A DNA stretch of 36,168 nucleotides from a virus. Every line of letters starts with the position of its first letter. Position 1 is the stretch's first letter. This document shows, in pieces, positions 14,775 to 31,786 of this stretch. The notes beneath the pieces are model-generated. The model was not told the origin of the DNA. It searched no databases and saw only the letters and a list, made by a program, of their open reading frames with translations. Both the position numbers and the translations under genes were made by a program. Location: IMG/VR virus record IMGVR_UViG_3300035703_001819, positions 1-36,168 of that record; one strand, written 5' to 3'.

Positions 14775-16163
14775 ATGGATAAAAAGAAAAAAATATTATT
14801 ACTATCGGATGACCTAAGATTGCACAGCGGAATTGCTACAATGAGTCGTGCAATTGTTATGAATACAATTCATAAATATGATTGGGTACAGGTGGGTGCT
14901 GGTATAAATCACCCAGAAGTTGGAAAAATACTAGATATTTCACAGGATATTAAAAATATAACAAATGTACAAGATGCGTCATTGCGCATAATACCTTGGA
15001 ATGGTTACGGCGATGCTTCGCTAATACGACAACTATTAGAGGTAGAAAAACCAGATGCCATATTACATTTTACTGATCCTAGATATTGGGTGTGGCTATA
15101 CCAGATTGAGCACGAAATACGACAGCAATGTCCTATTTTATATTATACTATTTGGGATGATATACCAGATCCACTATGGAATAGAAACTACTATGAAAGT
15201 TGCGATTGGTTAGGTTGTATATCAAAACAAACCTATGGTATCGTTAAGCGTATTGGCAATATAGAAAGTAATACTCGAAACAAGTTTGAAGATTGGCAAG
15301 TATCATATGTACCACACGGAATTAATAGTAATGCGTTTAAACCAACTGAAGTCCCCGATGATTTTAGGAAACAAATAATAGGCGATGCTGACTACAACTT
15401 TATAGTTTTCTGGAGTAATAGAAACATACGTAGAAAGCAACCATCTGATGTGATACTAGGGTTTAAACAGTTTTGTGACACGTTGCCAAAAGATGATGCT
15501 AAAAAATGTTTATTATTAATGCACACTGCTGCAATAGATGAAAACGGAACTGATTTGATTGCAGTTAAAGACGCAATTTGTCCTGACTACGATGTTAAGT
15601 TTTCACAGGGAAAGTTACAAGAAGATCAACTAAACTACTTATATAATTTAGCAGATATAACGGTTAATATTGCCGGTAATGAGGGATTTGGATTAACTAC
15701 TGCCGAATCTGTAATGGCAGGGACTCCAATTGTGGTTAATGTTACAGGTGGTTTACAAGATCAATGTGGATTTAAGAATAAAGAAACAAACTCTTATTTT
15801 ACAGCTGATGATTACATTGATATAAAATCTCTACATAAAAAGAAAGATTGGCTTGAAAAAGTAACCTGGGGTAATTGGGTTTATCCGGTTTGGTCGGTTG
15901 CTCATAAATTAAATGGATCTGTTCCAACACCATATATTTTTGATGATATGGTTAATGTGGACGATTTGACAGATGCGATTTCATATTGGTATAATACAAA
16001 CAAAGAAACCCGTAAGAAATTTGGCATTGAAGGTAGAAATTGGATGATAAACGAAGGTGGACTTGAAGTTAAGAATATGGCCAATGGAATTATTAATGGA
16101 ATTGAAACTACATTAGAAAACTGGAAACCAAGAAAGAAATTTGAAATATATAAAATTCAATAA
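14775..16163 (+). CDS. Glycosyltransferase, GT4-like (GT-B fold)
   Basis: 462 residues, first gene of the sugar cluster. The N-terminal Rossmann half starts KKILLLSDDLRLHSGIATMSR, the usual donor-independent opening of GT-B enzymes. The C-terminal half contains FSQGKLQEDQLNYLYNLADI and NEGFGLTTAESVMAGTPIV, giving the GT4 E-x7-E motif at E303 and E311, which contacts the nucleotide sugar. No membrane segment is visible, so it acts in the cytoplasm. The C-terminus is extended relative to small GT4 enzymes. The gene follows the regulator by 14 bases and is spaced 8 bases from a second GT4. The donor sugar and acceptor cannot be inferred. Confidence 0.88.
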   Translation: MDKKKKILLLSDDLRLHSGIATMSRAIVMNTIHKYDWVQVGAGINHPEVGKILDISQDIKNITNVQDASLRIIPWNGYGDASLIRQLLEVEKPDAILHFTDPRYWVWLYQIEHEIRQQCPILYYTIWDDIPDPLWNRNYYESCDWLGCISKQTYGIVKRIGNIESNTRNKFEDWQVSYVPHGINSNAFKPTEVPDDFRKQIIGDADYNFIVFWSNRNIRRKQPSDVILGFKQFCDTLPKDDAKKCLLLMHTAAIDENGTDLIAVKDAICPDYDVKFSQGKLQEDQLNYLYNLADITVNIAGNEGFGLTTAESVMAGTPIVVNVTGGLQDQCGFKNKETNSYFTADDYIDIKSLHKKKDWLEKVTWGNWVYPVWSVAHKLNGSVPTPYIFDDMVNVDDLTDAISYWYNTNKETRKKFGIEGRNWMINEGGLEVKNMANGIINGIETTLENWKPRKKFEIYKIQ

Positions 16164-16171
16164 AAAATATT

Positions 16172-17431
16172 ATGAATAAACCAACATTAGTATTTAGTGC
16201 CCCAGTATTAACCAGATCAGGATATGGGGATCACGCAAGAGATTTATTAAGATCTATTCGAAAATTAGATAGATTTGATGTAAAAATATTATCGCAAAGA
16301 TGGGGTGAAACTCCATTTACTGAATTAAAAGATGATGATGAGTTTTCTGTTTGGTGCAGAGACCGAATTGTTAAAACAAATTTAACAAAAAAACCTGATG
16401 TATTTATTCAAGTTACTGTGGCAAATGAGTTTCAACCAATTGGTGAGTTTAATATTGGAATAACTGCTGGAGTGGAAACTAATACGGCACCTCACACTTT
16501 TATTGAGGGATGTAATAGAATGGACTTAATATTAGTTCCATCTACATTTGTTAAAGATACACTATTGAATACATCATACGCAGAGGTGAATAAGGAAACG
16601 AACCAAACAATACGCGAATATAAGATAACAAAACCAATACACGTTTTATTTGAAGGTGTTGATGAGTCAGTATATTCACATACACATAATCATAGTTTAT
16701 TGGACAATGTTAGAGAAGACTTTGCATTTCTTTTTGTAGGTCATTGGTTACAAGGTGCACCAGGGGAAGACCGAAAAGATATATATACATTAATAGATGC
16801 GTTTTGCAGCGTGTTTGGAAAAGAACAAACTAAAAACCAACCTGCTCTAATTTTAAAAACATCATCTGCATCTTTTTCTATTATTGATAGAGAGGCTATG
16901 GTTGATAAAATAAAATGGGTTACTAATAAATTCTCAAATGTTCCACCAATATATCTTTTACACGGTGATTTGACAGCAAAAGAAATGTCATCATTATATT
17001 ATGATGAAAAAGTCAAAGCAATGGTTTCTTTTACTAAAGGTGAAGGATTTGGCCGACCGCTATGTGAATTTACATTTACAGGTAAACCTGTTATTGCATC
17101 TAAATGGTCAGGTCAGTTAGACTTTTTAACCAATGAGGGATCAGTTTTAATTGACGGTGAATTGACACCGGTTCACCAATCAGTTGTTAATGATTTTTTA
17201 ATTAAAGAATCAAAGTGGTTCACCGTAAACCCAACAGATGCGTGTAATAAATTGTATGATGTTTGGAAGAACTATAAAAAGTATAATCAAAAGTCAGAAA
17301 TTCTTTCTAAACGAAATAGAAAACAATTTTCACTGTCAAATATGGATTCCAAATTGAAAGATATTTTTGACAATTATGTTAAGGTAAAGGAATTCAAACA
17401 AATAGTATTACCAGAATTAGTTAAGCTATGA
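16172..17431 (+). CDS. Glycosyltransferase, GT4-like (GT-B fold)
   Basis: 419 residues. It opens with LVFSAPVLTRSGYGDHARDL, a GYG-type glycine loop seen in GT4 enzymes. FAFLFVGHWLQGAPGEDRKD marks the start of the C-terminal domain. TKGEGFGRPLCEFTFTGKPV gives the E-x7-E pair at E291 and E299. It is clearly a different subfamily from the preceding gene, not a tandem duplicate. It overlaps the next gene by 4 bases (ATGA). No transmembrane helix is seen. It probably adds one sugar of a multi-sugar glycan. Confidence 0.88.
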   Translation: MNKPTLVFSAPVLTRSGYGDHARDLLRSIRKLDRFDVKILSQRWGETPFTELKDDDEFSVWCRDRIVKTNLTKKPDVFIQVTVANEFQPIGEFNIGITAGVETNTAPHTFIEGCNRMDLILVPSTFVKDTLLNTSYAEVNKETNQTIREYKITKPIHVLFEGVDESVYSHTHNHSLLDNVREDFAFLFVGHWLQGAPGEDRKDIYTLIDAFCSVFGKEQTKNQPALILKTSSASFSIIDREAMVDKIKWVTNKFSNVPPIYLLHGDLTAKEMSSLYYDEKVKAMVSFTKGEGFGRPLCEFTFTGKPVIASKWSGQLDFLTNEGSVLIDGELTPVHQSVVNDFLIKESKWFTVNPTDACNKLYDVWKNYKKYNQKSEILSKRNRKQFSLSNMDSKLKDIFDNYVKVKEFKQIVLPELVKL

Positions 17432-17913
17432 TTAATGAGCCTAATTATTTAAGTCAATATACTCCATACATAAAAAAATATGTAAGAGCATCTCGTCAAA
17501 ATATGACTCCATTGAACATATATAAAATACAAACGTATCGTTATGCGGATGGGGTTGTTAGAAAAAAATTAGGATTGGAAACATCACTTATATTTTCTGT
17601 TGGCATTTATTTAAAAGAGTTATATTGTGTTAGGCTGAATGAAGTTAAACCTACTGAATTTTTTACGTGGAGTATGCGAATATTCAATAAAGATTCATTA
17701 AACGAAATAAAAGATGATGTAATTTCATTTAGGAGTATTATAAAAGAATTCAATGAAAATGGAAGAGAATTGTTTTTAAGTCATATTAAAACATCATCTG
17801 TTATGTATACTAAACAAAATAAGCAAAACTTTAGAACATACACAATATCAAATATAATTTACACACAGGAAGCTGTATTTGATATAGAAAAAATTAAAAA
17901 AATATATGGATAA
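17428..17913 (+). CDS. Conserved phage protein of unknown function in the sugar cluster
   Basis: 161 residues. RASRQNMTPLNIYKIQTYRY, then GLETSLIFSVGIYLKELYC and VRLNEVKPTEFFTW, form a basic N-terminal domain. I recall similar proteins (…TPL.IYKI.TYRY.DG… L.C.KLNE.KP..F…) in large T4-like phages, where they are unassigned and not tied to glycosylation. It has no glycosyltransferase motif, no cysteine cluster and no membrane helix. It overlaps both neighbours, so it is translated with the cluster. It may be an older phage gene into which the sugar block has been inserted around it. Confidence 0.7.
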   Translation: MINEPNYLSQYTPYIKKYVRASRQNMTPLNIYKIQTYRYADGVVRKKLGLETSLIFSVGIYLKELYCVRLNEVKPTEFFTWSMRIFNKDSLNEIKDDVISFRSIIKEFNENGRELFLSHIKTSSVMYTKQNKQNFRTYTISNIIYTQEAVFDIEKIKKIYG

Positions 17914-18550
17914 TAAAATATCATACGCCATAACGGTTTGCAACGAAATACAAGAAATTACAAAATTAGTAACATTTTTAATAGGAACAATTCGAGATCT
18001 CGATGAGATTGTAATTCAATATGATAAAGATAATGTAACACCTGAAGTGTTAGCTTATCTTAATGTAATGGAAACTATAAAAGACAATATAAAAGTTGTT
18101 GGATATCCATTAAATAAAGACTTTGCATCATTTAAAAATAATTTAAAACAAATCTGCAAAGGTGATTGGATCTTTCAAATTGATGCAGATGAAATGTTGG
18201 ACTTATTTTTAGTTAATAATTTACCTACTATATTATCATCAAATGACGTTGAAATGTATCTTATACCAAGGATTAATACTGTCAATGGCATAACTGATGA
18301 ATGGATTAATAAATGGGGATGGGTTACATCTAAAATTGATGGGGTTGATGATCTGGCTATAAACTTTCCCGATTTTCAATATAGAATATTCAAAAATGTA
18401 GATAGTATAAATTGGAAAAACAAAGTACACGAAGTTTTGGATGGGTTTTCTACATTTACGATACTACCAACTGATTATAAATTTTGTTTATTGCACCATA
18501 AAACGTTGGATAAGCAAATTAAGCAAAATGAATTATATAATACTATATGA
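17906..18550 (+). CDS. Glycosyltransferase family 2-like (GT-A fold)
   Basis: 214 residues. It begins KISYAITVCNEIQEITKLV (the GT2 opening strand with CNE), and has WIFQIDADEML with the D-x-D metal site at D93 and D95. KVHEVLDGF near residue 170 matches the acceptor-side His-Glu segment (VHE) of the WaaE/KdtX-like GT2 branch. It is short for the family but appears complete. It overlaps the previous gene by 8 bases and the next by 4, typical of a tightly coupled operon. It would transfer a sugar from a nucleotide donor in the cytoplasm. Confidence 0.85.
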   Translation: MDNKISYAITVCNEIQEITKLVTFLIGTIRDLDEIVIQYDKDNVTPEVLAYLNVMETIKDNIKVVGYPLNKDFASFKNNLKQICKGDWIFQIDADEMLDLFLVNNLPTILSSNDVEMYLIPRINTVNGITDEWINKWGWVTSKIDGVDDLAINFPDFQYRIFKNVDSINWKNKVHEVLDGFSTFTILPTDYKFCLLHHKTLDKQIKQNELYNTI

Positions 18551-19449
18551 AAAAAAGAAAAATAACTTTTATCTATGCGTATGAGGGTGAAACGTGGTCT
18601 ACCCCATTAAGTTTATTAAATGAATTTAAATACTCTAAAAATTGGGAAACTGAAATAGTATCAATCGGGTCTAATTCTACTGGTCATTACCACGAAGATA
18701 ATTTAAAACAATGGGTAGAATCCAAACCTAAAACTGATATAGTATTATTTATGGATTGGGGCAGGTTTTCATCTAATTATTTAAATAAAGAATTAGTAGA
18801 TGCATTTTGGATTCAAGAAAGTGGTGACGATCCGCAAAATTGGAAATTTAATTCACCAAAATGTAAATCATTTCATTTAACTATTACACCAGACTACCCA
18901 TCGTATGAAATGTACACTAAATTGTATAATATAAATGCAATTTGGATGCCACACTGGGCAGACACCAGAATGCACATACCAATGGCTATGCAGACACTGC
19001 CATATTTGGCAGTAACTACACGTGGATATGGTAATTCCGAGTTTTTGGACACATTAACTGATCATTCCAATGGCTCAATTGGGAATAAGAATGGAATGAT
19101 TGGACTAGAGCATTCTAGATTTTTACAAAGCGGTAAAATGGTAGTACAGAACTCAAGATGGGGAGAGGTTACGCGTAGAATTTTTGAGGGAATGGCGTGT
19201 GGTAGAATGGTTGTTACTGATAGATTACATCATTCGCGTAAATTGGAAGAGCTATTTGTAGAAGACGAACACATTGTTTTATATGATAATATGGTAGATT
19301 GTATTGAAAAGATAAACTATTATGCTACACACGACCGAGAGCGAAATAGAATTGCGCAAAATGGGTATCATAGAGTTTTAAATAATCACACACAGCGACA
19401 ACGTGTTGATACTTTAATTCAAGAATGGGAGAAGTTTAAATCATTATGA
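18547..19449 (+). CDS. Glycosyltransferase, CgeB-like (GT-B)
   Basis: 300 residues. The C-terminal half shows SGKMVVQNSRWGEVTRRIFE, then GMACGRMVVTDRLHHSRKLE and a final helix YYATHDRERNRIAQNGYHRV. This is the pattern of the CgeB/Glyco_trans_1_2 group, where the RxFE(G/A)MACG segment binds the donor. The N-terminal half (KITFIYAYEGETWSTPLSLL) is a Rossmann strand-loop. The ATG overlaps the previous stop, and its own stop overlaps the SDR gene start. CgeB-type enzymes are common in glycan and protein-maturation clusters, but the substrate is unknown here. Confidence 0.82.
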   Translation: MKKRKITFIYAYEGETWSTPLSLLNEFKYSKNWETEIVSIGSNSTGHYHEDNLKQWVESKPKTDIVLFMDWGRFSSNYLNKELVDAFWIQESGDDPQNWKFNSPKCKSFHLTITPDYPSYEMYTKLYNINAIWMPHWADTRMHIPMAMQTLPYLAVTTRGYGNSEFLDTLTDHSNGSIGNKNGMIGLEHSRFLQSGKMVVQNSRWGEVTRRIFEGMACGRMVVTDRLHHSRKLEELFVEDEHIVLYDNMVDCIEKINYYATHDRERNRIAQNGYHRVLNNHTQRQRVDTLIQEWEKFKSL

Positions 19450-20291
19450 ATATATTAGTTACAGGTGGTGCTGGCTTTATCGGCACTAATTTAATTAAAA
19501 GATTGCTTAAAGATGGACATTATGTTGAATCTTTGGATAATTATGAAACGGGTTTGGTTGAAAATGAAATTGAAGGTTGTTTTTATTCAAGTTTGGATAT
19601 AGATTCAATGGATTGGTTTGATGGAAAGGGTATAGACGTATGCTTTCATTTAGCGGCACAATCAAGGATACAACCATCGTTTAAAGATCCAATGGAAACT
19701 TTTAGAGCAAACGCAAATGGAACTCAAAAAGTTTTAAATTGGGCTCATAAAAACAATATTAAAGTTATTTATGCAGGCTCATCCTCAAGGTGGCACGATC
19801 CACACATATCACCTTATGCGTTGTCTAAATATTTAGGTGAAGAACTTTGTCATATGTATCGTAAAGTGTATGACTTAAATGTTCAAATTGCTAGATTTTA
19901 TAATGTCTATGGACCACACGAGATACTAGAAGGTGATAGTGCAGCTGTAATTGGAAAATGGAGAAACCAAGTTAAAAATAATCAACCCATTACGATTGTA
20001 GGAAATGGAGAACAGAGAAGAGATTTTACACACGTAGATGATATAGTAGATGGTTTAATTAGAATTATGGACTATAATGGTGACAACTACGAGTGGGAAC
20101 TTGGTACTGGTATAAATCATTCAATCAATGAGGTTTATGAAATGTTTAGAGATAAATTTAATGTGGACTGCATTACTATACCAGATGAAATGGGTAATTA
20201 CAGAGAAACGCAAAGGATAAATAATACTGCACTTGATTTACTTGGATGGTTGCCAGCTGATAAATTAAAAAAATACATAATGGAGTTATAA
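19446..20291 (+). CDS. NAD-dependent sugar epimerase/dehydratase (extended SDR)
   Basis: 281 residues. TGGAGFIG at 6-13 is the NAD(P)-binding glycine motif of extended SDR enzymes, and LDNYETG the cofactor-specificity loop. YAGSSSRW with YALSK (Y124, K128) gives the catalytic Ser-Tyr-Lys set. ARFYNVYGPHE and GNGEQRRDFTHVDD are standard nucleotide-sugar epimerase/dehydratase landmarks. At 281 residues it is slightly short for GalE/RfbB types (~310-340). It acts on a nucleotide-activated sugar, the product of which may feed the aminotransferase and glycosyltransferases of the same operon. Epimerase and 4,6-dehydratase cannot be told apart here. Confidence 0.9.
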   Translation: MNILVTGGAGFIGTNLIKRLLKDGHYVESLDNYETGLVENEIEGCFYSSLDIDSMDWFDGKGIDVCFHLAAQSRIQPSFKDPMETFRANANGTQKVLNWAHKNNIKVIYAGSSSRWHDPHISPYALSKYLGEELCHMYRKVYDLNVQIARFYNVYGPHEILEGDSAAVIGKWRNQVKNNQPITIVGNGEQRRDFTHVDDIVDGLIRIMDYNGDNYEWELGTGINHSINEVYEMFRDKFNVDCITIPDEMGNYRETQRINNTALDLLGWLPADKLKKYIMEL

Positions 20292-20292
20292 A

Positions 20293-20886
20293 ATGTATAG
20301 ATGGGATATTATAAATTTACTTATAAGAAAATATGACTATCGGACATACTTGGAAATTGGAGTACAAAACAAAAATTGTTTTAATAAAGTGAATTGTAAT
20401 TATAAAATATCAGTTGACCCAGACCAAGCAACCGATGCTGATTTTAACATTACGTCAGATGAATATTTTGAAAAATTAAGTTCTAAAGTCAAGTTTGACA
20501 TTATTTTTATAGATGGATTACATCACGATGATCAGTTATTAACTGATATTAAAAATTCATTATTGCATCTAAATGAAGGTGGTACTATTGTTTGTCACGA
20601 TATATTACCTACAACTGAAGCTATGCAACAACGAGCTGACAATGGTGGAGAATGGACAGGTGACGTTTGGAAAGCAATAGCTAACTTACGTGTAAATGAT
20701 ACATCATTACAGATACATACGATTGATACCGATTATGGGTGCGCGGTAATCCAAAGGGGGCACGGAAATTTTTTATATAACACAAACAACAACGATTATT
20801 TAACATACGAATATTATAGTAAGCATAAAAATGAAATGTTAAACGTTATATCACCCACACAATTTATTGAACTTTACAAACTATGA
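20293..20886 (+). CDS. Class I SAM-dependent methyltransferase
   Basis: 197 residues. TYLEIGVQNKNCF is a divergent SAM motif I, ISVDPDQAT the acidic ribose-binding end of strand 2, FDIIFIDGLHHDDQLLTDIK the post-motif strand, and LNEGGTIVCHDI the motif III turn. This is the Methyltransf_24 style often found in polysaccharide and lipid gene clusters, where the enzymes methylate sugars. It is embedded in the operon with 1 base before it and a 4-base overlap after it. O-methylation of a glycan residue is the simplest role, and a protein or DNA target is possible. Confidence 0.85.
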   Translation: MYRWDIINLLIRKYDYRTYLEIGVQNKNCFNKVNCNYKISVDPDQATDADFNITSDEYFEKLSSKVKFDIIFIDGLHHDDQLLTDIKNSLLHLNEGGTIVCHDILPTTEAMQQRADNGGEWTGDVWKAIANLRVNDTSLQIHTIDTDYGCAVIQRGHGNFLYNTNNNDYLTYEYYSKHKNEMLNVISPTQFIELYKL

Positions 20887-21527
20887 ATAAATTTTCAGTT
20901 ATAATACCAACGATATGGAAAGGACCATTTATTATTGACCTATTAGAGCGATACTATCGGTGTAGCTCGGTTGAAGAGGTTATTTTAATAGATAATGATA
21001 TTAACTCACGACCAGCAAACTTACCATTTAATGAAAAGTTAAAATTGATAGAGACACTAGAAAACATTTATGTAAATCCGGCTTGGAACCTTGGGGTGAG
21101 CGTATCAACTTCAAATTACATTACCATTTCAAATGATGATATTTTATTTGATGTAGATGATTATTTTAACTTTCTAAATTCTCTCAATGATCCCTTTGAA
21201 CAATGGGGATTTATCGGCACAAGCTCGGATAATTATGGCGAGCCCCAACCACCTATTAGGCTACAATCCTATGGTTCACACAATAAAGGGGGATGGGCGT
21301 GTTTATTTTCGTTCCATAAATCAATATGGAGAGACATACCCGGGGGCATAAAAATATACTATGGTGATAATTTTATTCATCTATCACCGCACCCAATAAA
21401 TGAAATGATTGGAATTCCAATCTGGACAAAAATGTCATCATCTGCCGATACAAGCGTTGACTGGGTGAAGGAAATCACAGACAAAGACCACATTGAGTGG
21501 ATGAAAATATACCAAACATTAAGATAA
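20883..21527 (+). CDS. Glycosyltransferase family 2-like (GT-A)
   Basis: 214 residues. It opens FSVIIPTIWKGPFIIDLLER, then VEEVILIDNDINSRP, the GT2 strand order. VNPAWNLGVSVSTSNYITIS followed by NDDILFD supplies the acidic metal-site region. The C-terminal third has a Trp-rich segment (GGWACLFSFHKSIW). It is short and may lack the acceptor domain. It overlaps the methyltransferase stop and is 1 base from the next gene. The call is a GT-A-type sugar transferase of unknown specificity. Confidence 0.78.
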   Translation: MNKFSVIIPTIWKGPFIIDLLERYYRCSSVEEVILIDNDINSRPANLPFNEKLKLIETLENIYVNPAWNLGVSVSTSNYITISNDDILFDVDDYFNFLNSLNDPFEQWGFIGTSSDNYGEPQPPIRLQSYGSHNKGGWACLFSFHKSIWRDIPGGIKIYYGDNFIHLSPHPINEMIGIPIWTKMSSSADTSVDWVKEITDKDHIEWMKIYQTLR

Positions 21528-21528
21528 T

Positions 21529-22284
21529 ATGTTAAAATTACCATTAAGCATAGGAATATTGGCGTGGAAATCTGGTCAAACCCTCGTTGATACTTTACAT
21601 TCATATTATATGAATGGTTTATTTGACCTTGTAAATGATACTACTATTTTATTTCAAGAGTTTTCTGATGAAGATATCCAAATCGCTGACCATTTTGGAT
21701 TACCTTATATTGCATTGAGTGATAATATTGGAATTGGAAATGGGTTCTTGACCCTAACCGAAAATGCAAAAAGTGAAAATGTAATGGTGTTGGAGCACGA
21801 CTGGCAATTGATTGAAGGTAAAAAAATAACACGTGACCGATTGGAAAGTGGTATCCAATTATTGGATGGGGGATTTGATGTGGTTAGATATAGACACAGA
21901 ACCGTTCCTGGATACCCGCATTTTTCATTTCGCCATATGGGAAATGAATTAGGATATTATGATGAAGAAATTGGGTGCACGTCTCCACACTTATTAGATT
22001 CCTTGCATTGGTTAGATCCATCGCAAGAATTTGGAGACAAGATCCAAAAACAAGGTGAATATTTTACAACAACATCCCGTTGGGGTAACTGGACAAATAA
22101 TCCGTGTATGTACAAAAAAGAATTTTACATAAATACAGTTACTCCATTTGCAGGAGATGGCATACGTCTTGAAGGTAATATATCAAAGTGGTGGGCAGAA
22201 CAGGAATTTAAAGTGGCACACGGAAGTGGTTTATTTAAACATTATGATCCTATAAAATATGGAATGCAAACTAATAATATTTGA
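21529..22284 (+). CDS. Putative glycosyltransferase (GT-A-like)
   Basis: 251 residues. LPLSIGILAWKSGQTLVDTL opens like a GT2 domain (SIGIL.wks). ENVMVLEHDWQLIE occupies the position of the metal-binding loop, with E89, H90 and D91 in place of a regular D-x-D. The middle is rich in Tyr/His/Arg (VRYRHRTVPGYPHFSFRH). A late TTTSRWGNWTNNPCMY segment would be acceptor-side. The altered metal motif lowers certainty. It overlaps the following fusion gene by 26 bases in a different frame, one of the longer overlaps in the cluster. Confidence 0.65.
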   Translation: MLKLPLSIGILAWKSGQTLVDTLHSYYMNGLFDLVNDTTILFQEFSDEDIQIADHFGLPYIALSDNIGIGNGFLTLTENAKSENVMVLEHDWQLIEGKKITRDRLESGIQLLDGGFDVVRYRHRTVPGYPHFSFRHMGNELGYYDEEIGCTSPHLLDSLHWLDPSQEFGDKIQKQGEYFTTTSRWGNWTNNPCMYKKEFYINTVTPFAGDGIRLEGNISKWWAEQEFKVAHGSGLFKHYDPIKYGMQTNNI

Positions 22285-23626
22285 TTTAGATGGGGTTTTG
22301 GTTTCTACCAAAGACATACACTATTCAACATTGAATCGTGCTCTGCGAGAAGTGGGTGAAAACTATGTTATTACTGAAGCTGAACACCTGTCTATATATG
22401 ATGGGTTAAAAACAACGCAAAAATTAGAGTTACTTACAAAGCATAAGGGGTTAGGTAAAGAGTTTTATGATCAAATCTGGAATAGAAAACAGCAACTGAC
22501 ACTTGATGAAATATCTGCACTGACCGAGGATATGAGACTGATTGAGTTATTTGAAGAACTATCCACTCGGGGTTATAAATTAGCGTGTTGTTCAAATTCT
22601 ATACAACAATCAGTTCTTACGATACTATCCAATATTGGATTGATTAAATATATGGATTTGATTTTATCAAATGAAGATGTGAAAAACTCAAAACCACATC
22701 CTGAAATGTACTGGACTGCAATGTCTATGATTGGTGTATTGCCAGAAGAAACACTTATAGTGGAAGACTCCCCACACGGCTTATTAGCGGCGAGTAGAAG
22801 TGGTGCAAATGTATTACGAGTGGATAGCCCAAAAGATTTGATTTTAACAAAAATTATAAGTAAATTAGAAGAAACTAAAACCAAAAATATGAAACCAAAA
22901 TGGAAAGCTGACAGGTTAAATGTAGTTATACCAATGGCAGGTGCTGGAAGTCGGTTTGAGAAAGCAGGCTATACATTTCCCAAGCCACTCATTGATGTGA
23001 TGGGTAAACCAATGATTCAACTTGTAGTTGAAAATTTAAATATTGATGCTAATTACGTTTACATTGTACAAAAGTCACACAGAGAAAAATATAATTTAGA
23101 TACATTATTAAATCTTATAACACCTAATTGTAATATTATTGAAGTTGATGGTGTTACCGAGGGAGCTGCTTGCACTGTGTTGCTAGCAAAAGAATATATA
23201 AATACCGATTCACCTTTATTACTTGCTAATTCAGATCAGTGGTTAGATTGGGATTCAAATGAATTTATGTATAAAATGAATGAAAGTAATTGTGATGGTG
23301 GTATTGTTACATTTACAGCAATTCATCCAAAATGGTCATTTGCTAAAGTCGATGATCGTGGCTATGTTACTCAAGTCGCTGAAAAAAACCCAATATCTAA
23401 TATTGCAACGGTTGGTGTTTATCATTGGAAACGGGGTGCTGATTTTGTAAAGTATGCAGAGCAGATGATAGAGAAAGACATTAGAGTAAATGGTGAATTT
23501 TATGTTGCACCTGTATTCAATGAAGCAATTGGTGATGCCAAATTAATTAAAATTCACCATATAGAAAAAATGATGGGATTAGGAACACCCGAAGACTTAC
23601 AAACATTTATAAATGAAACAAAATAA
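22259..23626 (+). CDS. Fusion: HAD-family phosphatase/phosphomutase + sugar nucleotidyltransferase
   Basis: 455 residues. Residues ~1-205 form a HAD domain of the beta-phosphoglucomutase type: FDLDGVLV with D9 and D11, a helical cap, LACCSNS as motif II, KPHPEMYW as the Lys, and LIVEDSPHGLLAA as the acidic motif. Residues ~220-455 form a nucleotidyltransferase: VVIPMAGAGSRF (222-233) with the TFPKPLIDVMGKPMI lysine, then NSDQWLDWD carrying the metal-site acid. Together the halves could turn a sugar phosphate into an activated NDP-sugar in a single protein. I checked the join (around 22890-22920) and see one continuous frame. Start ATG 22259 lies inside the previous gene. Which nucleotide and sugar are used is unknown. 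Confidence 0.88.
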   Translation: MECKLIIFDLDGVLVSTKDIHYSTLNRALREVGENYVITEAEHLSIYDGLKTTQKLELLTKHKGLGKEFYDQIWNRKQQLTLDEISALTEDMRLIELFEELSTRGYKLACCSNSIQQSVLTILSNIGLIKYMDLILSNEDVKNSKPHPEMYWTAMSMIGVLPEETLIVEDSPHGLLAASRSGANVLRVDSPKDLILTKIISKLEETKTKNMKPKWKADRLNVVIPMAGAGSRFEKAGYTFPKPLIDVMGKPMIQLVVENLNIDANYVYIVQKSHREKYNLDTLLNLITPNCNIIEVDGVTEGAACTVLLAKEYINTDSPLLLANSDQWLDWDSNEFMYKMNESNCDGGIVTFTAIHPKWSFAKVDDRGYVTQVAEKNPISNIATVGVYHWKRGADFVKYAEQMIEKDIRVNGEFYVAPVFNEAIGDAKLIKIHHIEKMMGLGTPEDLQTFINETK

Positions 23627-23628
23627 GA

Positions 23629-24099
23629 ATGGATCAAAAAATTTTAATATCACACAGAGGAAATTTAAAAGGTAGAATTACTGAACTGGAAAATAAACCA
23701 GAATACATAATGCAAGCCATTGGTAAGGGGTTTGATGTTGAGGTAGATTTTTGGAAATTTGAAAATGACTTTTTTTTAGGTCACGATTCTCCCGAGTATA
23801 AAGTAGATGAGGATTTTTTACTCAATGGTGCGTTATGGTTACACGCAAAAAACTTTCCAGCATTGCAATGGGGAATTGAAGAAAACTTGAATGTATTTTG
23901 GCACGAAACTGATAAAGTTGCAGTTACAAATCACGGTTATATTTGGGCATATCCTGGTGTACTTTGTAAAAATGCAATTACAGTTTTACCAGAAACCTTA
24001 GAAAACATTAGTAAAAGTATTATAGACGAGATTTTTGATGGTATTTGTTCGGACAATATAGAAGATTATTTCAAGGAGTTTTATGGAAAAAATAAATAA
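23629..24099 (+). CDS. Short GDPD/PI-PLC-like phosphodiesterase domain
   Basis: 156 residues. ISHRGNLKG gives the His-Arg pair, GFDVEVDFW the Glu-x-Asp metal ligands, and FFLGHDSPEYKV the third His-Asp segment, in the order and spacing of glycerophosphodiester phosphodiesterase TIM barrels. LWLHAKNFPAL would be the next conserved lysine strand. Standard enzymes are ~250 residues, so this version lacks about a third of the barrel, or is a compact branch seen in glycan clusters. It may cleave or make a phosphodiester link in the glycan. It overlaps the aminotransferase by 17 bases. Activity is uncertain because of the short length. Confidence 0.7.
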   Translation: MDQKILISHRGNLKGRITELENKPEYIMQAIGKGFDVEVDFWKFENDFFLGHDSPEYKVDEDFLLNGALWLHAKNFPALQWGIEENLNVFWHETDKVAVTNHGYIWAYPGVLCKNAITVLPETLENISKSIIDEIFDGICSDNIEDYFKEFYGKNK

Positions 24100-25273
24100 A
24101 CCAATTCAACTATTTAAAGTTTGGATGAATCAAAATACCAAACACGAAGTTGGTAAGGTATTAGATAGTGGTTACATTGGTCAAGGTGCAAAGGTAGATG
24201 AATTTGAAAGCAAACTGCGAGACTACTTTAATAATGATCGCGTTGTAACCTTAAATTCAGGAACATCTGGTTTGCATTTAGCATTACATATGCTGAAGAA
24301 CGCAAACACGACCGTGACTGCTGACGGATATTCTACAACCAAATCAGTTTGGCCAGGTATGGAGTATGGTGATGAGGTATTAGCGACAGCACTAACGTGC
24401 ACTGCATCAAACTGGCCTATTTTAGCAAATGGGTTTAAAATTAAATGGGTGGATATTGACCCAAAAACTTTAAATATGGATTTGGACGATTTGGAAAGAA
24501 AACTCACTCCAAATACAAAGGCTATAATGGCTGTGCATTGGGGTGGATATCCATTAGATTTAGATAGATTAAAAAAAATACAACAAAAATCACTTGAGCT
24601 GTATGGGTTTGAGCCACAAATAATTGAAGATGGTGCCCACTCATTTGGATCTGAATTCAATGGTAAAAAGTTGGGCAACCACGGAAATATGGTTATGTAT
24701 TCTTTACAGGCTATAAAACACATTACGTCAATTGATGGTGGCTTATTGCTTTTACCAAGTCAAGACTTATACAATAGATCTAAATTAATTAGATGGTATG
24801 GCATAGATAGAGAAGGAAATCGTAAAGATTTTAGATGTGAGGCTGATATACCTGAATGGGGATTTAAGTTTCATATGAATGATGTTTGTGCTACAGTTGG
24901 TATGGAAAACTTAAAGGATGTTGATTTTATATTGGGTAAGCATAGAGGTAATGCCCAATTTTATGATACAAATTTGAATGATGTGACTGGTGTAACTTTG
25001 TTAGAAAGAAAACCAAATCACAAATCATCATTTTGGATATATAGTATGTTAGTTGAAAACCGAGATGGTTTCTATAAATGGATGAAGGAGTGTGGGATTG
25101 TAGTATCACAAGTCCACGAGCGAAATGATAAGCATACAACTGTTAGAGATTTTAGATCTCCGCTACCTACATTAGAAAAAACAATAGGCAATGTAGTATC
25201 TATACCCGTCGGTTGGTGGGTAACTGAAGATGAGCGTGAATATATTGTAGATTGCATTAAAAAAGGATGGTAA
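24083..25273 (+). CDS. PLP-dependent sugar aminotransferase (DegT/DnrJ/EryC1/StrS)
   Basis: 396 residues. Transfers an amino group to a keto group on an NDP-sugar. VVTLNSGTSGLHLALHML is the phosphate-binding GTSG segment, AIMAVHWGGYPLDL and IIEDGAHSFGSEFNGKKLG provide the Asp (EDGAH) that holds the PLP ring, and YSLQAIKHITSIDGG contains the Schiff-base lysine K212. IRWYGIDRE is the family RxYG segment. All catalytic residues are present. It follows an NDP-sugar-forming fusion enzyme and precedes an acetyltransferase, so the expected product is an acylated amino sugar (compare perosamine or FdtB/PglE-type pathways). AAGGAG sits just before the start, inside the upstream gene. Confidence 0.94.
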   Translation: MEKINKPIQLFKVWMNQNTKHEVGKVLDSGYIGQGAKVDEFESKLRDYFNNDRVVTLNSGTSGLHLALHMLKNANTTVTADGYSTTKSVWPGMEYGDEVLATALTCTASNWPILANGFKIKWVDIDPKTLNMDLDDLERKLTPNTKAIMAVHWGGYPLDLDRLKKIQQKSLELYGFEPQIIEDGAHSFGSEFNGKKLGNHGNMVMYSLQAIKHITSIDGGLLLLPSQDLYNRSKLIRWYGIDREGNRKDFRCEADIPEWGFKFHMNDVCATVGMENLKDVDFILGKHRGNAQFYDTNLNDVTGVTLLERKPNHKSSFWIYSMLVENRDGFYKWMKECGIVVSQVHERNDKHTTVRDFRSPLPTLEKTIGNVVSIPVGWWVTEDEREYIVDCIKKGW

Positions 25274-25276
25274 ATT

Positions 25277-25870
25277 TTGTATAATCATAAAAACGGAATA
25301 GTATTAAGAAAACTTGAACGTAAAAATTTACCACTATTAAAAGAATTAAAAAATGAAAGTTGGTTTGGCACTCATACTATAAACTTTGTAAATGACGATG
25401 ACCAAGAGCGATGGTTTAATTCATTGAATCCAAATAAAGATTTAATTTTAATTGCAAACTCTACGCCGGTACTAAAAACACAACAACCAGCACGGGGACT
25501 TTTTAAAATTAATAATATAGATTGGGTCAACCGAAAATGTACAGAAGGTCACGATACATTTATAGACCAAAGGGGTTATGGCTATGGTAAATTAATAGTA
25601 GAAGCTGGAACTGATTTTATATTTGAAATTTTAAATATGAACCGAATTGAGTGTGAAATTTTAGAAAATAATATAGCATCACAAAAATGTTGCGAATACG
25701 TTGGATATACCAAAGAGGGTGTAAAACGAAAAGCAATTCATAAATGTGGTCAATATATAGATTCGTATTGTTATGGTATATTATTTGAAGAATGGAAAGA
25801 ATCAGCTAGGGTAAAGGATCTTTATAATGGTATTTGTAATAAATCATACCAACCATTAAATACTAAATAA
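25277..25870 (+). CDS. GNAT-family N-acetyltransferase (RimJ/RimL-like)
   Basis: 197 residues from TTG 25277; no ATG occurs until about residue 115, so a TTG start is needed. GIVLRKLERKNLPLLKELKN is the N-terminal strand-helix, and DQRGYGYGKLIVEAGTDFIF the acetyl-CoA loop (a modified R/Q-x-x-G-x-G/A). LNMNRIECEILENNIASQKC is the last strand-helix with the Asn and Ser that contact CoA, then CEYVGYTKEGVKR. Its place straight after the sugar aminotransferase suggests it N-acetylates the new amino sugar, as in bacterial surface-sugar pathways. Acetylation of a protein N-terminus is the alternative. Confidence 0.88.
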   Translation: MYNHKNGIVLRKLERKNLPLLKELKNESWFGTHTINFVNDDDQERWFNSLNPNKDLILIANSTPVLKTQQPARGLFKINNIDWVNRKCTEGHDTFIDQRGYGYGKLIVEAGTDFIFEILNMNRIECEILENNIASQKCCEYVGYTKEGVKRKAIHKCGQYIDSYCYGILFEEWKESARVKDLYNGICNKSYQPLNTK

Positions 25871-26533
25871 ATGAAAGTAGCACTTGTTTTAAATGGATTA
25901 CCCAGAAATGTAAAAGAAGGATATGAAATTTACTGGAAACATATAATTGAAAACTACGATACGGATGTTTATTTACATTTCTGGGAAGATGCGGATTGGC
26001 AAGATGTATTAAATGTATATAATCCAACTAAATTTATATGTCAGCCACCATTTCCATTTACAAAATATAAAGAAAATGTAACATCTGTAAATGACCCAAT
26101 GGCACGTCCAATTAAAGAATATGATGTTGCTGGAAATTTTACATCATTACCTATGTTTTATTCGTGGCAAAGTGGATATAATTTGATAGATAAGAAATAT
26201 GATTGTATTGTTAGAAGTAGATTTGACTTGGGGTGGGAGGTTCCAATGGACTTATCAAAATTTGATTTGAACAAAATAAATGTAACTAATCACCATTGGG
26301 CAAATTCAAAAATAATTGATGACAATTTACTAATATCAAATCAACAAAATTGTGATTTACTACTTACTGATATATTTGATACTTTTTGTAGTATCATACA
26401 GGGTGATGGTCTTATACACTTTGCCGAACAAAACTTTACTAACATTTTAATTAAAAAGAATTTATATCAATATATATATAAATCAAACGACTTGAATTTT
26501 AAACTATTAAGAGAATTCAAAGTTTGGTATTAA
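25871..26533 (+). CDS. Putative glycosyltransferase-like protein
   Basis: 220 residues. VALVLNGLPRNVKEGYEIYW, then DTDVYLHFWEDADW and YDCIVRSRFDLGWE. This resembles a group of capsule/LPS-cluster proteins with a VALxGxPR opening and a YDxVIRxRxD acidic block, presumed glycosyltransferases. There is no classical D-x-D, and the RSRFD segment (~118-122) is the likely donor site. It starts directly at the GNAT stop codon and is followed by a 19-base gap, one of the larger ones in the cluster. The call rests on general pattern and on context. Confidence 0.6.
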   Translation: MKVALVLNGLPRNVKEGYEIYWKHIIENYDTDVYLHFWEDADWQDVLNVYNPTKFICQPPFPFTKYKENVTSVNDPMARPIKEYDVAGNFTSLPMFYSWQSGYNLIDKKYDCIVRSRFDLGWEVPMDLSKFDLNKINVTNHHWANSKIIDDNLLISNQQNCDLLLTDIFDTFCSIIQGDGLIHFAEQNFTNILIKKNLYQYIYKSNDLNFKLLREFKVWY

Positions 26534-26552
26534 CTTTTAAAACACATTACTT

Positions 26553-27305
26553 ATGAAAATTGGATATATTATACCGTTATACTTTGGTGGTCCTAGGAGT
26601 TACGTTCACCCTAATTGCCAAACTGATACTTTGTTTTACATAAAAACTCAATTTCAATTCATTGAAAAACTGAATACAAAATTAGATAAAGTTTATGTTA
26701 TTTTTGCATTTGATAGTCGTTTAGATGCAGATACCGCACAGGAAATAAGAAACAACTTATTTACATTATGCTCACAATATGAAAATGTAGTGCTACGAGA
26801 GCGAAAAAATTTAGGTGGGTCATACTGCTCTTGGGAATATGCTTTGGATTTGGACAATGGTAAGTGTGATTTCATTTTCTTGACAGAAGATGACTATGTA
26901 TTATGGGATCCTAATGTAGTTGAAGAGGTATTGACATATTTTAATCAATTTGATGATCTACTTTATCTTTGTCAGTGGTGGAAAGAACACCCATATACCG
27001 TACATTATGGAAACATACACCAAGTTATACCGGTACACGCTGCGATGTCTGCTGGTATTATTAATAATAAAATGTATCACAAACTGAAAATAGAAAGAAA
27101 TTTATATTTTAAATTGGTACATGAAGAAGGTTACCAAGCAATGTATGCAAATCAAGCTATGTTTCTTGAGAATTATAGACAAAATGGAATACATATTAGA
27201 GACTGGAGAGAGGTTTTTAGTTCGTATTTTCCTCACGATGATGTTGATTATGGAAATGCAAACGGATTAAAAGTATTAGTTCCAATAACCGAAAAGTTTT
27301 TTTAG
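26553..27305 (+). CDS. Glycosyltransferase-like (GT-A), EDD metal motif
   Basis: 250 residues. IGYIIPLYFGGPRSYVHPN opens the nucleotide-binding domain, then VYVIFAFDSRL. FIFLTEDDYVLWDPNVVEEV supplies an EDD acidic triplet (E112, D113, D114) where GT-A enzymes bind metal and nucleotide sugar. QWWKEHPYTVH and AMSAGIINNKMY follow in the acceptor half. It shares the EDD layout with the next gene (LMEEDDFV), so these two may be distant paralogues. Donor and acceptor are unknown. Confidence 0.72.
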   Translation: MKIGYIIPLYFGGPRSYVHPNCQTDTLFYIKTQFQFIEKLNTKLDKVYVIFAFDSRLDADTAQEIRNNLFTLCSQYENVVLRERKNLGGSYCSWEYALDLDNGKCDFIFLTEDDYVLWDPNVVEEVLTYFNQFDDLLYLCQWWKEHPYTVHYGNIHQVIPVHAAMSAGIINNKMYHKLKIERNLYFKLVHEEGYQAMYANQAMFLENYRQNGIHIRDWREVFSSYFPHDDVDYGNANGLKVLVPITEKFF

Positions 27306-27308
27306 AGT

Positions 27309-28073
27309 ATGGGTAAATTAATAAGTGGTTATTTATGGGCGTGGAGAAATTGGGAAGCTGGTTCTAAATCGGTCGCCACACTAAAAAAGTATTATCCTGA
27401 TGCTGATATTTTTATAAATGTTGATTATGAGGGAGACATTGACACATATGATAAAATATGTAATGAACTGGGATACACATTAAGCGTAAATTCATTTCAA
27501 CTTGGTTATTGTGGGAATTTCGGTGACAGAAATTTGGGTAGAGAGTGTTGGCCGGTTGAATCTTCTGTAGAATGGATGGATCGTTTATACAATGCTTGCT
27601 TAAAAACAGATTCAACTTATATGCTACTAATGGAAGAAGATGACTTTGTATTAAAACCGATTTCAATTTTATCTAATTCGTTTTCAATGGCAACTCACCC
27701 AACATACCCATCACCAGCTGGTGTATATAGAGCTAATCACATACCATCTGAATTTATAACATTTATACAAGAAAATGGTGGCAATTGCACATCAAATGGT
27801 TATGCAGCAGGTGGTGGTACTATTTTTAATAGACACGAAATGATACTTTCGTGGGAAAAGACAAGGTCAATTTTAATTGAAAAATACGATTATTTGAAAG
27901 CAATAAATAAAATAATAGGTTGGCAAGATTATTTGATGCAATTTGTGATGCAAATGGGCGGATATCAAATAATACAGAACAATAAATTATGTGAACATTG
28001 GGAGATACCCGATAGGTGGAAAACATTTGAAATAGTAACTGGATTAAAAGAACATACATTAGTTAGCTTATGA
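27309..28073 (+). CDS. Glycosyltransferase-like (GT-A), EEDD metal motif
   Basis: 254 residues. LISGYLWAWRNWEAGSKSVA opens the domain. STYMLLMEEDDFVLKPIS has acidic residues 109-112 at the metal position. Later AAGGGTIFNRHEMIL and IIGWQDYLMQFVMQ match the acceptor helix region of GT-A enzymes, where a conserved D is often found (WQD). It overlaps the next gene by 4 bases. Sequence order resembles that of the gene at 26553, which suggests an old duplication, but identity looks low. Function in glycan assembly is inferred. Confidence 0.7.
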   Translation: MGKLISGYLWAWRNWEAGSKSVATLKKYYPDADIFINVDYEGDIDTYDKICNELGYTLSVNSFQLGYCGNFGDRNLGRECWPVESSVEWMDRLYNACLKTDSTYMLLMEEDDFVLKPISILSNSFSMATHPTYPSPAGVYRANHIPSEFITFIQENGGNCTSNGYAAGGGTIFNRHEMILSWEKTRSILIEKYDYLKAINKIIGWQDYLMQFVMQMGGYQIIQNNKLCEHWEIPDRWKTFEIVTGLKEHTLVSL

Positions 28074-28876
28074 TAATATTAACAGCAATTACAAACTATA
28101 ATGTAAATGACATTAGACCATTCGTAGAATCATTAAACAAAAGTGGATATGTTGATGGTAAAGTTGCATTGATATACGATGTATCTACTGATGCTATTGA
28201 GTATTTAAAATTAAATGGGTGGGAGTTATATAAAAGTAATTTAAAAGAGCACATAATTCTGCAAAGATTTATAGATGCATATTCTTTACTTGACAATTAT
28301 AAAAACGAAATTGTATTTTGGACTGATATTAAAGATGTTATTTTTCAACGAAACCCGATTGATTGGGTTTCTATTCAATTTGACAATTATTGGAATAAGT
28401 CTGAAATTTTAGCATTTTCAGAATGTATAAGATTAAAAGATGATCCGTGGGCGTGTATTAATTCAGGCACCACGTTTCCATTAGAATGGGAGTGGAATAA
28501 AAATAATATATCATATTGCGCTGGGACAATACTTGGACGTGGCTATGCATTAAAGGATTTGTTTAATGAAATTTACAGATGGTCTAAAACGACATCTAAT
28601 CCAGATCAACTATCAGATCAAGCTGCTTACAACGTTTTGATTAGATTGAATCATTTTAAACATATAGTCGAATTTGTGGAGCAAGAAAATGGATTTGTAA
28701 CACAACTTGGAACGGTTTGGTGTAAGCAGAATGAGTTTTCAGATCACTTAACAGAACCTACACCATTGTGGAAAGATGGACTTTTATGCAATAAAAAGGG
28801 CGAACCATTTTATGTAGTGCATCAATATGATAGAGACCCATTTTTGAAAAATGAATATCTAAATAGATTCAAATGA
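28070..28876 (+). CDS. Glycosyltransferase-like protein with TDIKD motif
   Basis: 268 residues. ILTAITNYNVNDIRPFVESL opens, and EIVFWTDIKDVIFQRNPIDW follows at ~82-101, with D86 and D89 in a TDxxDVxFQ block. This block marks a set of bacterial and algal GT-A enzymes that act on surface glycans. INSGTTFPLEW / SYCAGTILGRGYALKDLFNE supplies the usual glycine-rich acceptor loop, and DQLSDQAAYNVLIRLNHFKH the later DQxxxN helix. It overlaps both neighbours by 4 bases. The call is moderately strong because these three segments are in the expected order. Confidence 0.75.
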   Translation: MIILTAITNYNVNDIRPFVESLNKSGYVDGKVALIYDVSTDAIEYLKLNGWELYKSNLKEHIILQRFIDAYSLLDNYKNEIVFWTDIKDVIFQRNPIDWVSIQFDNYWNKSEILAFSECIRLKDDPWACINSGTTFPLEWEWNKNNISYCAGTILGRGYALKDLFNEIYRWSKTTSNPDQLSDQAAYNVLIRLNHFKHIVEFVEQENGFVTQLGTVWCKQNEFSDHLTEPTPLWKDGLLCNKKGEPFYVVHQYDRDPFLKNEYLNRFK

Positions 28877-29766
28877 AAACATTAATATCAATTTTTATTC
28901 TACCACAAGAAATAGATGATTTAGAACGAACACTAATTCAGTTAAAAAACTCATCTAAATATCTAACTAATACTGATATTATATTTGACATTTCAATTAA
29001 TGTGTCAGAGTATCTTACAGATTGGAGCTCGTCTTATATTCCTAAACAATTCTTTATAGATAAATTTAATGATATTGTAAAGTATATGGATTGGTCTAGT
29101 CCAAAATCAAAATTCAATATAGTAGATGACGAAAGTATAATGGGGTGTGTATCACAGAGACGGGTAAGTTGGTTAACTCACCAAGATGTGGATAATATCC
29201 TATGGCTTGATGTTGATTTGATTTTTGACGAACGAACTCTTTTTTATATATTACACACGGCAACTCAAATTGAAAATGAACTTTATGTAATAACCCCACA
29301 AACGGTTAAATTATGGGATCATACCTGGGATTGTTTGGTAAATGATATGTTCAAAGATAAACCATACGGATATGAAAAAACAGGATGTGATCCTTTTATA
29401 GATAGTGGAATAAAAGATACACCATCTGTAAATTTGATGTTATCACACACAGCTGGTCAACCTGTTATGAAATTTGCAGGTGGTTGGTTTACTTTAATAT
29501 CAAAGAAGTTACTTGATTTAGTAAAAGTTCCAAAATCATTTGGACATTATGGGTTAGAAGATACGTTTATTATGTGGGCTACCCATTCAAAAATACCAAG
29601 TGCTGAACAATTTATACTTAAAAATGTGGTAGTATGTGAGGATTATAAGTATAGAAATAGAAAACACTATTTAAATTACATATCCCCGATTGATAGACGC
29701 GATGAATTTTTAAAATTAGCACATTCTAATTTTACAAATGAACTAATGAATTTGAAAATAAAGTAA
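28873..29766 (+). CDS. Glycosyltransferase-like protein with DVD motif, last of the cluster
   Basis: 297 residues. TLISIFILPQEIDDLERTLI opens. ILWLDVDLIFDERTLFYIL places a D-x-D at D113 and D115. AGGWFTLISKKLLDLVKVPK and FGHYGLEDTFIMWATHSK carry the later G.ED segment found in GT-A enzymes that process polysaccharides (LEDT with its Asp). No membrane helix is seen. It is the final gene of the continuous run. The 38-base gap and a promoter-like motif that follow mark the end of the operon. Confidence 0.75.
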   Translation: MKTLISIFILPQEIDDLERTLIQLKNSSKYLTNTDIIFDISINVSEYLTDWSSSYIPKQFFIDKFNDIVKYMDWSSPKSKFNIVDDESIMGCVSQRRVSWLTHQDVDNILWLDVDLIFDERTLFYILHTATQIENELYVITPQTVKLWDHTWDCLVNDMFKDKPYGYEKTGCDPFIDSGIKDTPSVNLMLSHTAGQPVMKFAGGWFTLISKKLLDLVKVPKSFGHYGLEDTFIMWATHSKIPSAEQFILKNVVVCEDYKYRNRKHYLNYISPIDRRDEFLKLAHSNFTNELMNLKIK

Positions 29767-30180: not shown

Positions 30181-30819
30181 TTGGATTTAAACGACATTAA
30201 ATATGGAACAATACCAATTTTTCACGTTGAATCTATAAAAACAGGTTCTGCTATTATAAAAAAGTGTGAAGATAATGGTATTATAGACCATATGCTTAAT
30301 AACCCACCACCCACTAATGATAGTGATGAGACAAAAAATGAATTATTAGAATTACAAACGCTAACAAAAAATGCAAGTGAAGATGATTATAAACTATGTG
30401 ACGTATTGGAGCATAAACATTATGATTTCTTTGCTAAATTCTGTAATAAATTAGGCTTGACGGACGAAACGGAAACAAGTATAAAAGCATTGAGTGAAGA
30501 GTTTGATGGGTTAGTTAATTATATTAAGTTTAAAATAAATAGACCCAGACCACACCAATTAGCAATATATTACGACATTCCGTTATTTCCAATTGTATCA
30601 ACCGATGCAAATTCACCATCTTGGCCATCTGGACATTCCGTTGATTTTTTGATAATATTACATAGATTAAAACAAAAATACCCAAACAATGTAAGTGATT
30701 TTGATTTGTTGTATACTAAAATTAAAGATGTTAGACAATTGAGTGGTGTACACTATCCAAGTGATAAGGATGGTGCTGATACATTGGTTACTATGCTTAT
30801 TGAAAATAATTTGATTTGA
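30181..30819 (+). CDS. Soluble PAP2-like phosphatase
   Basis: 212 residues from TTG 30181, preceded by AAGGA at 30166-30170. Three PAP2/acid-phosphatase motifs appear in order: KFKINRPRP (K-x6-RP, ~118-126), SWPSGH (PSGH, ~149-154), and RQLSGVHYPSDKDGAD (SR-x5-H-x3-D type, His ~193, Asp ~197). No hydrophobic membrane helices are visible, so this is a soluble member, unlike typical membrane PAP2 lipid phosphatases. It removes phosphate from small phosphate monoesters or pyrophosphates, and the substrate is unknown. I recall PAP2-like genes in other marine T4-like phages. Confidence 0.83.
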   Translation: MDLNDIKYGTIPIFHVESIKTGSAIIKKCEDNGIIDHMLNNPPPTNDSDETKNELLELQTLTKNASEDDYKLCDVLEHKHYDFFAKFCNKLGLTDETETSIKALSEEFDGLVNYIKFKINRPRPHQLAIYYDIPLFPIVSTDANSPSWPSGHSVDFLIILHRLKQKYPNNVSDFDLLYTKIKDVRQLSGVHYPSDKDGADTLVTMLIENNLI

Positions 30820-30820
30820 G

Positions 30821-30830
30821 ATATTTATAT
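30821..30830 (+). promoter_or_regulatory. ATATTTATAT promoter-like motif
   Basis: Near-copy (GATATTTATA, one mismatch) of the recurrent motif, directly after the PAP2 gene stop and 22 bases before ATG 30853. Confidence 0.35.
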
Positions 30831-30852
30831 CTATTAATAGGAACTAAATTAA

Positions 30853-31748: not shown

Positions 31749-31755
31749 AAAAATT

Positions 31756-31784: not shown

Positions 31785-31786
31785 TA

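Follow-up and report, generated by a model that had tools for sequence, protein, structure and literature searches.

Large, variable clusters of glycosyltransferase (GT) and sugar-enzyme genes are present in the T4-like cyanophages P-SSM2, S-SSM7 and S-SM2 (PMC3037559, PMC2984593, PMC7824862), and in the host recognition cluster (HRC) of pelagimyophages, GTs are mixed with tail fibres and collagen-repeat structural proteins are found (PMC7029224); in both cases, the authors mostly infer modification of the host surface (PMC3037559, PMC2984593, PMC7824862, PMC7029224). In the moraphages, large jumbo phages of aquatic and mostly freshwater origin, four orthologous groups of GTs are part of the core genome (PMC12619734). 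Among giant viruses, Mimivirus/Megavirinae and chlorovirus combine virus GTs with a C4 aminotransferase, an acetyltransferase and a methyltransferase in one cluster (PMC10117803, PMC9614988), and the Mimivirus clusters encompass GTs and viosamine enzymes, 4-N-acetyl-viosamine being found on the virion fibrils (PMC10117803). Here we analyze an island of about 15 kb with comparable content (positions 14775–29766) in the IMG/VR virus record IMGVR_UViG_3300035703_001819, the 36 kb (36,168 nt) of which are referred to as the window. On balance, we consider it probable that the island is a phage-owned modular locus for cytosolic glycosylation of virion proteins, on the fibre or the head or tail surface, with a variable glycan.

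The island resembles these systems in content but not in place and organization. The cyanophage lipopolysaccharide (LPS) clusters are sporadic and lie near hli, phoH or tRNA genes, and the pelagimyophage HRC, located in the structural region between VrlC and gp14, is non-syntenic, whereas the present island is ordered and syntenic, has a fixed position after the replication genes gp44-gp62-exonuclease, and contains a probable gp2 gene. S-CAM9 and B23 encode the same fusion of a HAD domain with a nucleotidyltransferase (HAD-NT; 53–59% identity), again within GT clusters. None of 17 related records encodes psbA/psbD (PF00124), so that there is no sign of a cyanophage, and none has HSP70/DnaK, the mark of the moraphages (PMC12619734), so that membership in that group is unsupported by this mark. 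The giant viruses are eukaryotic and their glycans have been measured, whereas that of the island is predicted, and the island lacks a 4,6-dehydratase. The nearest named phage is Microcystis phage Mel-JY01 (PP395634; DNA polymerase 49% identical), with a GT cluster in the same place, but, unlike the window, with no relative of the HAD-NT fusion or of the DegT aminotransferase found in the cluster region.

Layout and conservation of the island

All 18 open reading frames (ORFs) of the island are on the plus strand, separated by no more than 19 bases, with many neighbours overlapping by 4–26 bases, which confirms the nearly gapless gene array described in an earlier, sequence-only reading of this DNA. 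They comprise 11 GT-like genes, 6 genes for sugar-related enzymes and a single non-enzyme gene, 17428–17913 (Table 1). The T4-like core proposed in the same reading is real: the left part of the window encodes ribonucleotide reductase, the gp43 polymerase, the gp45 clamp, a dUTPase, the clamp loader (gp44, gp62) and an exonuclease (PHROG matches for gp43, gp45, gp44 and gp62 at 8100, 10642, 11956 and 13176), and a gp23-type major capsid protein (PF07068, E ≤ 8e-75) is encoded in four long relatives, the window itself stopping short of the capsid genes. A near-DNA search of phages with the window yielded no match.

A scan with the HAD-NT fusion produced 360 viral relatives, of which 80 were kept; most of the loci were fetched through this gene, the frequency of which in the islands is, therefore, by construction. 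An island starting with the GT gene GT4a was counted in 52 loci or records (our handles for these are L and G numbers). The backbone order GT4a-GT4b-GT2a-CgeB-GTc-HADNT-GTf-GTg-GTh is kept in all 48 islands with at least four backbone genes, and the location after gp44-gp62-exonuclease recurs, including in two relatives that are near-complete (266 and 274 kb). The cluster of Mel-JY01 shows the same placement independently of the HAD-NT fetch, and a locus fetched through gp44, which is not a glycan gene, also has the island (L085); two others have none after gp62 (L089 and L090). With 52 relatives carrying the island in one place and in the same order, a recent host insert absent from related phages is rejected, and the suggestion of a phage glycan-assembly operon within a T4-like core is supported, the operon being owned by the phage. 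The same reading called the cluster unusually large for a phage, which does not hold: the island length has a median of 14.0 kb and a range of 8.8–20.0 kb, so that 15 kb is ordinary in this lineage, and P-SSM2 has 24 LPS genes (PMC2984593).

Within the conserved frame, the sugar cassettes (aminotransferase, epimerase and methyltransferase) come and go and are reshuffled like a serotype locus. When mapped on a tree of the exonuclease, GT4a and GT4b, the gene contents imply at least 6 changes for DegT, 6 for the epimerase, 5 for CgeB and 3 for the methyltransferase, and even the close backbones of L020/L058 and L009/L032 differ in DegT. Median identity to the window is 79% for DegT and 73% for HAD-NT, compared with 56% for gp44 and 52% for the polymerase, which suggests exchange or strong constraint. 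A dUTPase-like gene sits between GT4a and GT4b in L020, L043, L055, L057 and L058. No viral relatives emerged when the exonuclease and the PAP2 protein were used as scan queries.

Probable virion genes within the island

The product of the non-enzyme gene has no match in Pfam or PHROG, but three modest lines of evidence agree that it is probably T4 gp2. When every ORF in the related loci was searched with a hidden Markov model of annotated gp2 proteins, this family topped the list (E 4e-4 and 0.009); profile-profile comparison of the family with gp2 gave p 0.0034 (in a control run with other settings, gp2 scored p 0.032 and unrelated alignments at least 0.46); and a Foldseek search of BFVD with the structural model matched two annotated gp2 proteins (prob 0.97 and 0.98, E 0.008 and 0.015). 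A fold search of the PDB and a second look with the same model gave no convincing match. The gene overlaps the GT genes on both sides, so that co-transcription with them is probable.

Three relatives from a single clade (G012, L038 and L045) have, between gp2 and GT2a, a tail-fibre gene with collagen repeats and 33–40% Ser+Thr (PF01391, E 5e-34 in L045 and 5e-31 in L038), and in five further contigs, a collagen-like fibre gene is located directly upstream of GT2a. Overall, 8 of 55 GT2a genes have such a fibre gene as a neighbour, compared with 36 of 2576 other genes (p 2e-6, not independent evidence because the contigs are related; GT2a is identical in L040, L051 and G012). The gp2-GT2a slot is occupied by a small protein rich in Ser/Thr in about 20 further islands. 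Next to the collagen fibre, and likewise within the island, a subtilase-domain protein is encoded in L038 (3525–5114, PF00082) and G012 (C1:133647–135212).

Membrane and export components

No membrane segments are predicted in the island proteins of the window, and none of the 768 genes in the 52 islands encodes a membrane protein of Wzx/Wzy size, whereas cellular loci that share the HAD-NT module encode proteins with 8–13 transmembrane segments. The Wzx-type flippase (PF13440) was found in none of 14 island-bearing records, with 14 of 14 control genomes positive, and the initiating phosphoglycosyltransferase PF02397 was likewise found in none of the 14, with 9 of 14 controls positive, the WecA type not being covered by this search. 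The lack of a flippase, an initiating transferase and a Wzy-like protein argues for a cytosolic acceptor and runs counter to the proposal that the operon polymerizes a heteroglycan, for which no polymerase was found in the islands and no flippase or initiating transferase in the 14 records.

Candidate targets of the glycan

The evidence on the target favours a virion protein, given the lack of export parts, the probable gp2 gene in the middle of the operon and the fibre gene in the island of one clade, together with the relationships of GT4a, the nearest solved relative of which is a giant-virus GT, and of DegT, which is of the S13 C4 type. Gene content, location, gene order, cassette turnover and the lack of export parts are observed, whereas which molecule accepts the glycan, which sugars are used, in what order the GTs act and whether the phage benefits are inferred. 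The working mode would most likely be similar to giant-virus virion glycosylation. In this scheme, activation of a sugar phosphate would fall to the HAD-NT fusion and variation of the donor sugars to the epimerase, C4 aminotransferase, GNAT and methyltransferase, and about 11 soluble GTs acting in a chain would build a short oligosaccharide straight on the acceptor, with no need for a lipid carrier, a flippase or a polymerase. Exchange of the sugar cassettes would then change the 'serotype' of the particle.

Several observations weigh against a virion target. The in-island fibre is limited to one clade, within which GT2a is at least 75% identical, compared with about 50% identity to the window; in the window itself, the gp2-GT2a slot is empty, and there is no Ser/Thr-rich ORF of at least 200 aa. 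Shared transcription of gp2 with the GTs is deduced from gene spacing, and gp2 is a head protein, not a known glycan acceptor. Furthermore, GTs acting on the LPS core or on inner-membrane lipids need no flippase of their own. For chlorovirus B736L, the structure is solved but the acceptor itself is unsettled (PMC9614988). Finally, modification of the host surface is the published view of the P-SSM2 clusters (PMC2984593, PMC7824862) and of the pelagimyophage GTs (PMC7029224).

Under that alternative, which we rate as unlikely although it is the strongest competitor of virion glycosylation, the phage would remodel the LPS, or some other glycan on the surface of the infected cell, and thus block adsorption of competitors or of its own progeny. 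The high turnover suits O-antigen-like diversity, in bacterial loci the HAD-NT/GDPD pair has WavE-like, LicD-like and flippase-like genes as neighbours, and the export machinery of the host could be borrowed; the missing initiating transferase, flippase and Wzy-like protein, and the virion genes within the island, nevertheless speak against it. Far less probable is DNA hypermodification, whereby the GTs would assemble an oligosaccharide on a modified base as protection from restriction and CRISPR. The T4-like core, a DNA methyltransferase at 6955–7899 and the adjacent replication genes are compatible with such a role, and GTs of T4 and its relatives glucosylate hydroxymethylcytosine in DNA (PMC6024577). 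However, of the thymidylate-synthase-family genes present in 4 of the 17 related records, those of the near-complete G003 and G012 encode ordinary thymidylate synthase (LGLPFN) rather than dCMP hydroxymethylase, and the complete Mel-JY01 has no gene of this family, yet encodes GT4a, GT4b and GT2a, which makes a DNA target unlikely. To our knowledge, no DNA glycan calls for as many as 11 GTs together with aminated and methylated donors. Least probable of all is a small glycolipid or free glycoconjugate for envelope remodelling, rather than a polymer or virion coat, as could be proposed from the GDPD-like gene in the island and the PAP2-like gene at 30181, given that the latter is outside the island in a non-conserved adjacency and that the GTs are too numerous for a simple glycolipid.

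Enzymes of the island and neighbouring genes

Pfam matches bear out the HAD-NT fusion, DegT, GNAT and methyltransferase of the sequence-only reading, and the GDPD-like protein stands as well, its H-R, E-x-D and G-H-D motifs being invariant in 11 relatives. The HAD half of the fusion is nearest to beta-phosphoglucomutase (E 7e-21) and the NT half to the nucleoside-diphosphate-sugar pyrophosphorylase 4evw (E 1e-24), so that, fused, they could convert a hexose phosphate to a nucleoside diphosphate sugar. In the alignment with 1lvh, H21 and K77 correspond to H20 and K76, but the R49 region is not conserved, and the HAD half could be either a mutase or a phosphatase. The GDPD-like gene directly follows HAD-NT in 24 islands and is also found in 20 cellular loci. 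In cellular loci (L134–L197), the nucleotidyltransferase-HAD-GDPD module, fused or separate, adjoins surface-glycan genes, in genomes including those of Legionella, where a LicD-like gene is next to the module, SAR86, Pelagibacteraceae, Methylophilaceae, candidate phyla radiation (CPR) bacteria and archaeal metagenome-assembled genomes.

The SDR protein, taken earlier for an epimerase/dehydratase, looks like an epimerase rather than a dehydratase: in six relatives the site is GSSS...YxxxK without the TDE (T-D-E) dehydratase motif, and the best solved relatives are UDP-glucose 4-epimerases. The island thus cannot be credited with self-sufficient synthesis of an aminated sugar, as had been suggested in principle, because the 4-keto substrate of DegT must be supplied by the host or by a different phage gene. 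By sequence comparison, DegT groups with CalS13/AtmS13 as an S13-type C4 sugar aminotransferase (E 3e-119 over the full length to CalS13, 4zas; E 1e-129 to 4xau), with K212, invariant in the alignment, presumably being the pyridoxal phosphate lysine known in this family. CalS13 is a C4 sugar aminotransferase. For AtmS13, amine addition at C4 has been postulated (PMC10951976). The GNAT gene comes after DegT in 14 of 18 cases, which fits N-acetylation of an amino sugar, the putative role of its product, even though the nearest solved relatives are polyamine acetylators; a PseH model scored below the cut-off with this protein. The methyltransferase, with no solved relative, would be responsible for sugar O-methylation.

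Among the GTs, proposed to be two GT4-like, one CgeB-like and about eight GT-A-type enzymes, the GT4 and CgeB assignments are upheld by Pfam and GTh by its model; the GT2 matches are weak, and five (at 21529, 25871, 26553, 27309 and 28070) were assigned by DxD-like motifs seen by eye and by conservation, with no named library match. GT4a, the best solved relative of which is the chlorovirus GT B736L (E 8e-13), was found in all 17 records tested, GT4b in all 52 islands and GT2a in 47 of the 52. GTh has no sequence match, but its AlphaFold model (pLDDT 92.8) adopts a GT-A fold, and Foldseek returned 267 matches at E ≤ 0.001, with GT-A enzymes at E 2.5e-7 and prob 1.0.

Table 1 Genes of the island and a further glycosyltransferase gene in the window.
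Feature	Coordinates	Strand	Evidence
GT4a, GT-B glycosyltransferase, first gene of the island	14775–16163	+	PF00534 E 6e-9; phrog_2170
GT4b, GT-B glycosyltransferase	16172–17431	+	phrog_2170 E 5e-20; weak PF00534
Probable T4 gp2-type DNA-end protector (virion head gene)	17428–17913	+	HMM, profile-profile, Foldseek
GT2a, GT2-like GT-A glycosyltransferase	17906–18550	+	weak PF00535; phrog_37334
CgeB-like GT-B glycosyltransferase (Glyco_trans_1_2)	18547–19449	+	PF13524 E 8e-27
Extended SDR, nucleotide-sugar epimerase type	19446–20291	+	PF01370 E 8e-48
S-adenosylmethionine methyltransferase (Methyltransf_24)	20293–20886	+	PF13578 E 5e-9
GT2b, GT2-like glycosyltransferase	20883–21527	+	PF00535 E 3e-4 (weak)
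GTc, GT-A-like (motif only)	21529–22284	+	no library match; relatives 62–73% identical
Bifunctional HAD (beta-phosphoglucomutase-like) and sugar-1-phosphate nucleotidyltransferase	22259–23626	+	PF13419 E 9e-32, PF00483 E 6e-12
Compact GDPD-like protein	23629–24099	+	phrog_34507; no Pfam match
DegT/S13-type nucleotide-sugar C4 aminotransferase	24083–25273	+	PF01041 E 2e-68
GNAT acetyltransferase	25277–25870	+	PF13302
GTd, GT-like	25871–26533	+	phrog_13607; in 34/52 islands
GTe, GT-A-like (motif only)	26553–27305	+	no library match; single relative, L002, 56%
GTf, GT-A-like (motif only)	27309–28073	+	relatives found; no solved relative
GTg, GT-A-like (motif only)	28070–28876	+	relatives 58–62% identical; no solved relative
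GTh, GT-A glycosyltransferase, last gene of the island	28873–29766	+	predicted fold
Further GT2, outside the island	33501–34238	+	PF00535 E 5e-12; phrog_841 GtrB-like

Glycan-related genes go on beyond the island, with a further GT2 (Table 1). The stretch 30181–32871, after the island, encodes a PAP2-like phosphatase, a protein judged by eye to resemble Ntn hydrolases, S-adenosylmethionine decarboxylase and a metallophosphoesterase, and two GIY-YIG homing endonuclease genes (285–896 and 4624–5361) are located on either side of the ribonucleotide reductase region. The T4 late-promoter motif TATAAATA is not enriched in the window, which is uninformative on expression timing. Bacteroidota-type promoters are enriched in G003, G012, G001 and Mel-JY01 but not in the window; in Mel-JY01 (L084), the recorded host of which is Microcystis, TTTG-N-TAnnTTTG occurs 11 times compared with 4.3 expected, and the host label may deserve a check. 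In the same phage, GT4a is split into two adjacent ORFs (L084:21442–22933), and the structural genes have nearby a gene for a protein of 1226 aa that combines several GT domains (GT4, GT9-like and TibC-like; L199:4750–8430); TibC is a cytosolic protein glycosyltransferase.

Implications

A more specific scenario is possible but doubtful, namely, that this large, uncultured lineage of T4-like aquatic phages displays a serotype-switching glycan, encoded by the phage itself, on collagen-like, Ser/Thr-rich tail fibres, made co-linearly with virion assembly, as a counterpart of the Mimivirus fibrils, in which case cassette exchange would amount to antigenic variation. For about 20 years, the GT clusters of T4-like phages have been seen as host-changing LPS genes or possible stuffer DNA. 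An ordered, conserved locus with no export parts and with a probable virion gene inside, joined in some relatives by the Ser/Thr-rich collagen fibre, makes the glycosylated-virion alternative directly testable, and a named isolate, Mel-JY01, and specific candidate acceptors are now available for such testing. If virion glycosylation is indeed the function of the island, serotype-like variation would act on phage particles, too.

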